A DNA stretch of 64,000 bases from Halothermothrix sp. (GTDB lineage: Bacteria; Bacillota; Halanaerobiia; DY22613): assembly GCA_016841825.1 (NCBI GenBank), contig JAENYK010000012.1, positions 62,001 to 126,000 of the forward strand, read 5' to 3'. Positions 42,762-44,653 of the stretch are shown here, one piece after another. The position numbers and the translations under genes are program-made. The notes beneath the pieces were generated by a model. That model saw only the letters and a program-made list of their open reading frames with translations. It made no database searches and was not told the DNA's origin. How positions within the stretch are numbered: position 1 is the stretch's first letter; each line of letters starts with the position of its first letter.

Positions 42762-42830
42762 TTTTGGTAAGGCATTTTCTGACGACGATTATCCTACTCT
42801 AACAATTTTAGTAATACTCATTACAGAAAA

Positions 42831-42862
42831 TCAGGACTGGAGATTTAATACTCCAGTCCTGA
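42831..42862 (-). terminator. Terminator of trpP
   Basis: TCAGGACTGGAG and CTCCAGTCCTGA form a perfect 12-bp stem; TTTT follows on the minus strand, 20-50 nt beyond the trpP stop. Confidence 0.85.
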
Positions 42863-42880
42863 TGGCCTGCTATTATTAAG

Positions 42881-43390
42881 TTATTGAGTTTGTTCGATAA
42901 ATTTTTTGCTCTGGACTATTGTAGTGAAAAGAATAGTTCCGGCAAAAGTATTGATTAGTGCTGCCGGTAATACTACTGTAAGGATTAAGGTCATCATCGG
43001 ACCTGGTAAGCCAATGATTATGGCTGCAGTAGTTAAAAAGATTAAACCACTAATAATTGTTCCGATACCATTGACCAGTCCTACCAGGATAATATTTTTA
43101 CGAATATTTAGGGTATTGATGATAACTACAATCAGGGTTGTAGTTAAGGTTTTATCGACCAGATTTGCTATCTGTCCACCCGGAAAGCCGGTAGTCAGGG
43201 CAGTAAAGATTCCGGTAGCCAGTCCCGCAATGAGTGCCAGCTTAAAATCTCGTTTTAAAAGAATAATGCTAAACAACATTGCCAGGGAAAAATCTGGCTT
43301 CATCCCCAAAAGAATGGGTGGACATAGGGAGTGAAGAACAAAACCTATAGCCAATAATAAACCAACCTCAGTAAGATCTTTAATTTTCAT
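42881..43390 (-). CDS. trpP: Tryptophan transporter TrpP
   Basis: 169-aa membrane protein with about five helices. LHSLCPPILLGMKPDFSLAM, TGIFTALTTGFPGGQIANLVDK and LVNGIGTIISGLIFL with GLPG match Bacillus TrpP (YhaG) closely. It imports tryptophan. The leader carries long arrays of GAG/TAG triplets, described separately, the hallmark of translational repression by TRAP when tryptophan is plentiful. Monocistronic. Confidence 0.92.
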   Translation of the reverse strand: MKIKDLTEVGLLLAIGFVLHSLCPPILLGMKPDFSLAMLFSIILLKRDFKLALIAGLATGIFTALTTGFPGGQIANLVDKTLTTTLIVVIINTLNIRKNIILVGLVNGIGTIISGLIFLTTAAIIIGLPGPMMTLILTVVLPAALINTFAGTILFTTIVQSKKFIEQTQ

Positions 43391-43394
43391 TTTT

Positions 43395-43589
43395 CTAATC
43401 TCCTCTCAGCTCAACTCAGCTCTGCTAAATTTTCAATTTTTTGCTTCTGGATCTCAGCTCAACTCTTTGAGGTTTACAAACCTCGTCTCAACTACTAGCT
43501 CATTCTCAACTAATCTGACTCAGCTCAACTCCTTCCTTTATTAAAGATACCTTTTTACTATTATAAAAAATTGTTTGGTATCTTGTCAA
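43395..43589 (-). promoter_or_regulatory. trpP promoter and TRAP-binding leader
   Basis: On the minus strand TTGACA (43584-43589) and TATAAT (43560-43565) are 18 bp apart. The leader RNA has a distal array of about ten GAG/TAG (one CAG) triplets at 43482-43531, a GAGGTTT-GT-AAACCTC hairpin (43469-43484), three triplets at 43453-43465, and a proximal array of seven at exactly 5-nt period (43395, 43400, 43405, 43410, 43415, 43420, 43425). The proximal array covers the Shine-Dalgarno sequence and ends 5 nt before the ATG. TRAP, an 11-mer, binds such triplets spaced by 2-3 nt. Confidence 0.85.
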
Positions 43590-43765: not shown

Positions 43766-44653
43766 ATGAATCAGCAGATGCAAGCAATTATCTATCTTGG
43801 TTTTGCTACCCTGGCTTTTAGCTCGATGGAGTTGGCTGGAAAGTTTGTCGCCACTGAAATGGCTCCGTTACAGGTGACATTTCTTAGATTCATGATCGGT
43901 TTTTTATTACTACTTCCTTTTGCTATTCTGGAAAAGAGAAGAAAGAGGATTACTTTAACAGGAATGGATATTCTCTGGCTGGCTGGTCTGGGTATTTGTA
44001 ATATTACTATAGCTATGGTTCTGCTGCAGCAGGCTGTGACTACCATTCCTGCATCTTTGGCGGCAATTATTATTAGTTCTAACCCCATATTTGTGGTGAT
44101 CTTTGCGGGAATAATTTTGCAAGAGCAGATAACTATCAAAAAAGTTATCGGCCTAATTGTGGGGATTTTCGGTCTGACTGTGGTTACCAATATCTTTAAT
44201 ACAGTCTCCACTGTGGATATTCCGGGACTGATATCAGCTGTCGGTGCTGCAGTGTTTTTCGGATTATATACGGTATTAAGTAAAAAAGTGGTTTCTAGAT
44301 TAGGAGGAATGATTACTAATGTAGGATCTTTTTTCATCGGCAGCATGTCGTTACTGGTTATCCTGTTAATTAAAGGTGAGCCCCTTGTGGCAGGTTTAAA
44401 CCGGTCTACTATCTGGCCAATCCTTTATTTGGGTTTTGTAGTCACAGGTTTTGCCTATTTAACCTTCCTACGTGGTTTAAAGTTGATTGATGCCAGTAAA
44501 GGTGCAGTAATTTTCTTTTTTAAGCCGATTGTAGCTTCTTTTTTGGCTTATGTAATTTTGCATGAGACTATTGGAGTTAATGTTCTGGTAGGTACTATTT
44601 TTGTCATAATTGGTTCAATGATTATGGTGTTGGGAGCTAAAAAAGCGATTTAG
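43766..44653 (+). CDS. EamA/DMT-superfamily transporter, 295 aa
   Basis: Two EamA repeats (about 6-140 and 152-290), ten membrane helices in total. SSMELAGKFVATEMAPLQVTFLRFMIG and, in the second half, FGLYTVLSKKVVSRLGG with KPIVASFLAYVILHE are the paired drug/metabolite-transporter motifs. Likely an exporter of amino acids or metabolites. GGGAGG precedes the ATG. It is divergent from trpP but separated by its own control region; no direct link to tryptophan is shown. Confidence 0.92.
   Translation: MNQQMQAIIYLGFATLAFSSMELAGKFVATEMAPLQVTFLRFMIGFLLLLPFAILEKRRKRITLTGMDILWLAGLGICNITIAMVLLQQAVTTIPASLAAIIISSNPIFVVIFAGIILQEQITIKKVIGLIVGIFGLTVVTNIFNTVSTVDIPGLISAVGAAVFFGLYTVLSKKVVSRLGGMITNVGSFFIGSMSLLVILLIKGEPLVAGLNRSTIWPILYLGFVVTGFAYLTFLRGLKLIDASKGAVIFFFKPIVASFLAYVILHETIGVNVLVGTIFVIIGSMIMVLGAKKAI

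Follow-up and report, generated by a model that had tools for sequence, protein, structure and literature searches.

The leader of the tryptophan transporter gene trpP in a Halothermothrix sp. genome carries 20 non-overlapping GAG/TAG triplets between its promoter and the ATG at position 43390 (read directly, minus strand), the highest count among the ~115 trpP leaders examined. TRAP is a ring protein that senses tryptophan, and comparison of sequences indicates that it very likely represses translation of this gene. Our preferred reading, held with modest confidence, is that the leader belongs to a TRAP-responsive, monocistronic uptake gene, at which a proximal ring would block the Shine-Dalgarno sequence and a distal ring would tighten repression.

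Organization of the trpP leader

Positions refer to the window, i.e., the whole 64,000-nt stretch of DNA analyzed. The region from promoter to start codon (43589-43390, minus strand) and the gene that follows comprise the following features:

43560-43589, minus strand: sigma-70 promoter, TTGACA-18-TATAAT, 12/12 consensus bases
43534-43547, minus strand: small predicted 5′ hairpin, UCUUU-AAUA-AAGGA, 5 pairs, directly 5′ of the distal array
43482-43531, minus strand: distal putative TRAP array, 10 GAG/TAG triplets within a 50-nt stretch, roughly the circumference of one ring
43469-43484, minus strand: hairpin GAGGTTTGTAAACCTC, 6 bp with a UGUA loop, between the distal and middle blocks, read from the sequence
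43453-43465, minus strand: middle block GAG TT GAG CT GAG, 3 triplets, likewise read directly
43428-43452, minus strand: A/T-rich linker, 25 nt, triplet-free, likewise read directly
43395-43427, minus strand: proximal putative TRAP array, 7 triplets at an exact 5-nt period, spanning the Shine-Dalgarno sequence
42881-43390, minus strand: trpP, tryptophan transporter of 169 aa (Pfam PF17099 TrpP, E 6.2e-46)
42830-42863, minus strand: predicted intrinsic terminator downstream of trpP, 13 pairs

From 5′ to 3′, the blocks thus follow each other as 10 triplets, hairpin, 3 triplets, A/T-rich linker, and 7 triplets. The preliminary description of this DNA had reported about 20 triplets in two blocks of a leader at 43395-43589, with a hairpin after the distal block and seven proximal triplets at exact 5-nt period across the Shine-Dalgarno sequence. 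Direct reading bears out the count, the hairpin, the distal ten, and the proximal seven (43427-43395, with the Shine-Dalgarno sequence AGGAG inside at 43404-43400), but adds the three triplets 3′ of the hairpin. The range given there does hold the array, but it also takes in the promoter (43589-43560), the RNA leader itself being ~163 nt (~43553-43391).

Start-to-start spacings in the distal block are irregular (5, 5, 9, 5, 6, 4, 3, 5, 5), and two of its triplets abut without a spacer, so that not all ten can be used simultaneously; its last GAG is part of the stem of the central hairpin. Three copies of a 16-nt unit, which share the core GAGTTGAGCTGAG, are present at spacings of 48 and 66 nt, and these repeats suggest that the array may have grown by local duplication. 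The predicted 5′ hairpin is weak here (z 0.0 over the first 45 nt), and stronger in relatives.

No intrinsic terminator was found within the leader between 43560 and 43390, and a TRAP transcription attenuator was accordingly rejected as a class for this element. A T-box leader (RF00230) was rejected as well, the Rfam scan of the window having returned no match. The terminator right after the gene suggests a monocistronic unit. A perfect 8-nt inverted repeat, AAGATACC/GGTATCTT, with its arms 25 nt apart (43544-43584), flanks the trpP −10 box and is a possible operator. Divergent from trpP lies an EamA-family transporter gene (43766-44653) whose product is weakly similar to YddG, an exporter of aromatic amino acids; in the sister genome, the 1.5 kb preceding trpP showed no counterpart.

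The array against chance and the rest of the genome

Both the regularity and the density of the triplets exceed expectation. The longest exact 5-nt run is 7, whereas none of 100 first-order Markov shuffles of the window gave a run above 4. The trpP leader is also the 170-nt stretch of the window richest in triplets, with 22 when overlapping ones are counted; the shuffles held at most 17. When the leader itself was shuffled, at least 20 triplets arose in 0.055% of trials and the exact run never exceeded 5. Across the 5.08-Mb genome, the pattern KAGNN repeated five times occurs only in this leader. Four repeats gave scattered matches, at or below the number for a reversed-pattern control and none like the leader array, and seven repeats with up to 3 mismatches returned the leader plus two dubious sites; a second TRAP array was not found with any of these three patterns. 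The second TrpP of the same genome, a paralogue, has no triplet array.

TRAP and tryptophan biosynthesis in the genome

The genes for TRAP and anti-TRAP had been named beforehand as companions to seek. A canonical mtrB, which encodes TRAP, is present (PF02081, E 3.5e-38), whereas rtpA was not found: a search of the genome with the B. subtilis anti-TRAP returned weak matches only (best E 0.011). Two of these, adjoining stretches of a single 382-aa frame, resemble DnaJ-type zinc repeats, to judge by length and repeat structure. In alignments to PDB chains, the encoded TRAP is closest to solved Bacillus TRAPs, and the segments FHHSEKLD and AIKVRG, which we take to contain key RNA-binding residues, are intact. 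The tryptophan-loop region reads GDAT here and GADT in a solved Bacillus chain, one residue different, at positions that vary across the class.

Unlike B. subtilis, this genome yielded no match to trpE (TIGR00564), trpC (PF00218), or trpA (PF00290). Since the assembly is 99.7% complete, the organism is probably a tryptophan auxotroph, and TRAP therefore appears to be retained for a single visible target, the control of uptake. The assembly has an estimated contamination of 4.72%, and trpP and mtrB lie on separate contigs (188 and 386 kb); each has a close counterpart in the sister genome (G001). The combination of mtrB present and trpC absent is shared by other genomes of the class, e.g., G001, G021, G030, and G039.

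trpP leaders of relatives

The comparison covered 35 Halanaerobiia genomes and 79 contig loci, including Bacillaceae and Clostridium, with some leaders in both sets. In most leaders of the class, triplets lie over the Shine-Dalgarno sequence or start codon, many beyond shuffle expectation, and a split into distal and proximal blocks is frequent; the comparison with relatives, which the preliminary description had proposed as a check, thus finds the triplets in most members, but three (G010, G011, and G012) show no excess. Many related leaders hold just 7-11 triplets, so that one ring would suffice there. The sister genus leader has 15 triplets between −150 and +20, arranged as a distal 6, a proximal 6, and isolated ones. 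No equivalent of the central hairpin was seen in that leader, and the hairpin was dropped as a candidate conserved element. In a MAFFT alignment of three leaders, the distal block was unaligned and the proximal register shifted.

Halanaerobium leaders follow a recurrent plan, with a strong promoter, often a 5′ hairpin, a distal block of 3-6 triplets, and, beyond an A-rich linker of ~12-14 nt, 4-7 proximal triplets that extend into codon 2. The Halothermothrix leader shares with them a strong promoter and a distal and a proximal block joined by an A/T-rich linker, the proximal one lying over the Shine-Dalgarno sequence; promoters as strong as its own precede many orthologous leaders. Halanaerobium leaders differ in having about half the triplets, a proximal block that often enters codon 2, and a marked 5′ hairpin (over the first 45 nt, most have z values of ~−2 to −4.5, but G018, G020, and G028 are near 0). 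In five of them (L062, L065, L066, L068, and L069), this hairpin takes the form AAGCTAAT-AGAG-ATTAGCTT, near the RNA start and before the distal triplets, and resembles the stem-loop at the 5′ end of the trp leader in B. subtilis. Four Halanaerobium genomes carry tandem trpP pairs (L074, L075, L076, and L077), with a separate triplet array for each copy.

Other leaders depart further from this plan. Within family f9, which lacks mtrB, trpP is preceded by T-box leaders (RF00230) in G041 and G045 (L046:1060-1319 and L049:1058-1324). These represent leader-RNA control of the same gene, presumably sensing uncharged tRNA, and an apparent swap of regulator. The G015 leader (L045:2200-1970, minus strand) has distal triplets, an intrinsic terminator (ACCGTAACAGGCTTGTTACGGT and then a T run), and a proximal block over the Shine-Dalgarno sequence, and looks like a combination of attenuation and translational control. 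The most regular array found, in the trpP leader of Bacillota MAG STF2_155 (L168), is a run of 10 triplets, each exactly 5 nt from the next, that covers the Shine-Dalgarno sequence and start codon. Long exact-period TRAP-type arrays also lie close to mtrB, no more than a few hundred bases away, in G048 (C14:62594-62651, 12 triplets) and similarly in G046, G047, G053, and G054, with tryptophan biosynthesis genes close by on the same contig.

Comparison with known TRAP targets

The B. subtilis trpEDCFBA leader bears a 5′-end array of ~11 triplets that TRAP binds on the nascent RNA, with a 5′ hairpin ahead of it. The Halothermothrix leader likewise has a 5′-end array preceded by a weak predicted hairpin, but differs in lacking a terminator/antiterminator, in controlling a transporter gene, and in carrying a second block over the Shine-Dalgarno sequence. 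Another parallel is B. subtilis trpP (yhaG), at which, according to two sources (PMC11255114; PMC4347634, citing Yakhnin 2004), TRAP binds the translation initiation region and blocks ribosome binding; the gene family is the same, and the triplets overlap the initiation region in both. Unlike in Bacillus, there are 20 triplets in three blocks rather than at most 11 (15 Bacillaceae leaders), which agrees with the earlier expectation of more triplets than in Bacillus, and the proximal run is cleaner (an exact run of 7 triplets against 6 at most) and accompanied by an added, full-size distal block.

In the literature searched, TRAP targets are described as one site of ~9-11 triplets. We took a translational target to be ~9-11 (G/U)AG triplets, mostly with 2-3 nt spacers, overlapping the Shine-Dalgarno sequence or start, and this genome offers such an array with Shine-Dalgarno overlap, an intact TRAP, and a target in tryptophan transport, namely a member of the TrpP family (PF17099). 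In a partial body of literature, neither TRAP in Halanaerobiia nor leaders with two rings turned up as the subject of a paper, which is weak evidence of novelty. What appears new relative to Bacillus is the longest array of the ~115 leaders, in a genome where TRAP is apparently kept for uptake alone.

Proposed mechanism and alternatives

Translational repression is very likely because the proximal block occupies the position of the B. subtilis trpP TRAP site, the target is TrpP, mtrB is canonical, start-site triplets recur across the class, and T-boxes stand in for them in two leaders of the mtrB-less family; the TRAP control put forward in the preliminary description is therefore well supported. 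When tryptophan is plentiful, tryptophan-loaded TRAP rings would wrap the leader RNA. The proximal ring would engage the seven exact-period triplets and probably the three middle ones, with the A/T-rich linker looped out, for a total of 10 contacts, and by covering the Shine-Dalgarno sequence would stop trpP translation. The distal ten would most likely hold a second ring, loaded first on the nascent RNA, which could tighten repression through higher local TRAP occupancy or through TRAP-induced early termination. When tryptophan is scarce, TRAP would be released and uptake would rise. Early termination by TRAP without an attenuator is documented in B. subtilis, at the trp leader (PMC3913778); as there is no terminator within the Halothermothrix leader, termination by the distal ring would need to be terminator-independent. 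A separate distal-ring role is made feasible by the G015 leader, in which a terminator lies between the distal and proximal blocks.

How many rings take part is less certain. Two rings, on 10 and on 3 + 7 triplets, are the best-fitting reading of the array, to which we give an even chance, because each set approaches one 11-mer ring; the size of 11 is assumed from Bacillus, although a TRAP of 12 subunits is also known (PMC3184956). Alternatively, a single ring could bind a split site, partly on distal triplets and partly on the proximal seven; the RNA between them would be looped out, and the surplus triplets would provide alternative registers. The Halanaerobium split arrays, which total ~9-11 triplets, would suit one 11-mer ring with a loop, but one ring could hold only about half of the 20 triplets, and the distal block by itself is already about as long as the circumference of a ring; we regard this looped single-ring site as unlikely here, though still a serious contender. 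The additional sites might also do no more than increase affinity.

Less probable again is a situation like that of Bacillus trpP, in which only the proximal block works, its seven triplets perhaps joined by the middle three, and the distal block is a drifting by-product of local duplication. This would account for the three copies of the 16-nt unit, and for the irregular spacing of the distal block and the failure of that block and the central hairpin to align with the sister genus, features that also count against our preferred reading. Yet the sister genus has a distal block too (6 triplets), such blocks recur in the class, and a block of ten should bind TRAP however it arose. That the triplets merely reflect purine-rich sequence, with no link to TRAP, is highly improbable: GAG/TAG is common in A/G-rich leaders, and mononucleotide shuffles of this one yield ~8.5 triplets, but the exact run of seven and the density exceed shuffles, the gene encodes TrpP, mtrB is present, triplets are kept in orthologues, and the mtrB-less family has two T-box leaders. 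We thus retain the TRAP-responsive leader with a blocking proximal ring and a tightening distal ring. The fuller picture, a tandem switch in which distal and proximal rings act together in an organism that has lost biosynthesis and uses TRAP solely to regulate uptake, is more tentative, and we place it a little short of even.

Implications

If true, a two-ring leader would provide a test of whether TRAP rings can act jointly on one RNA, and could give a sharper response than one ring. At the level of the genome, the evidence hints that TRAP may outlive its namesake biosynthetic operon, as a dedicated regulator of transport, and such auxotrophs would offer a natural setting in which to study TRAP in this role.
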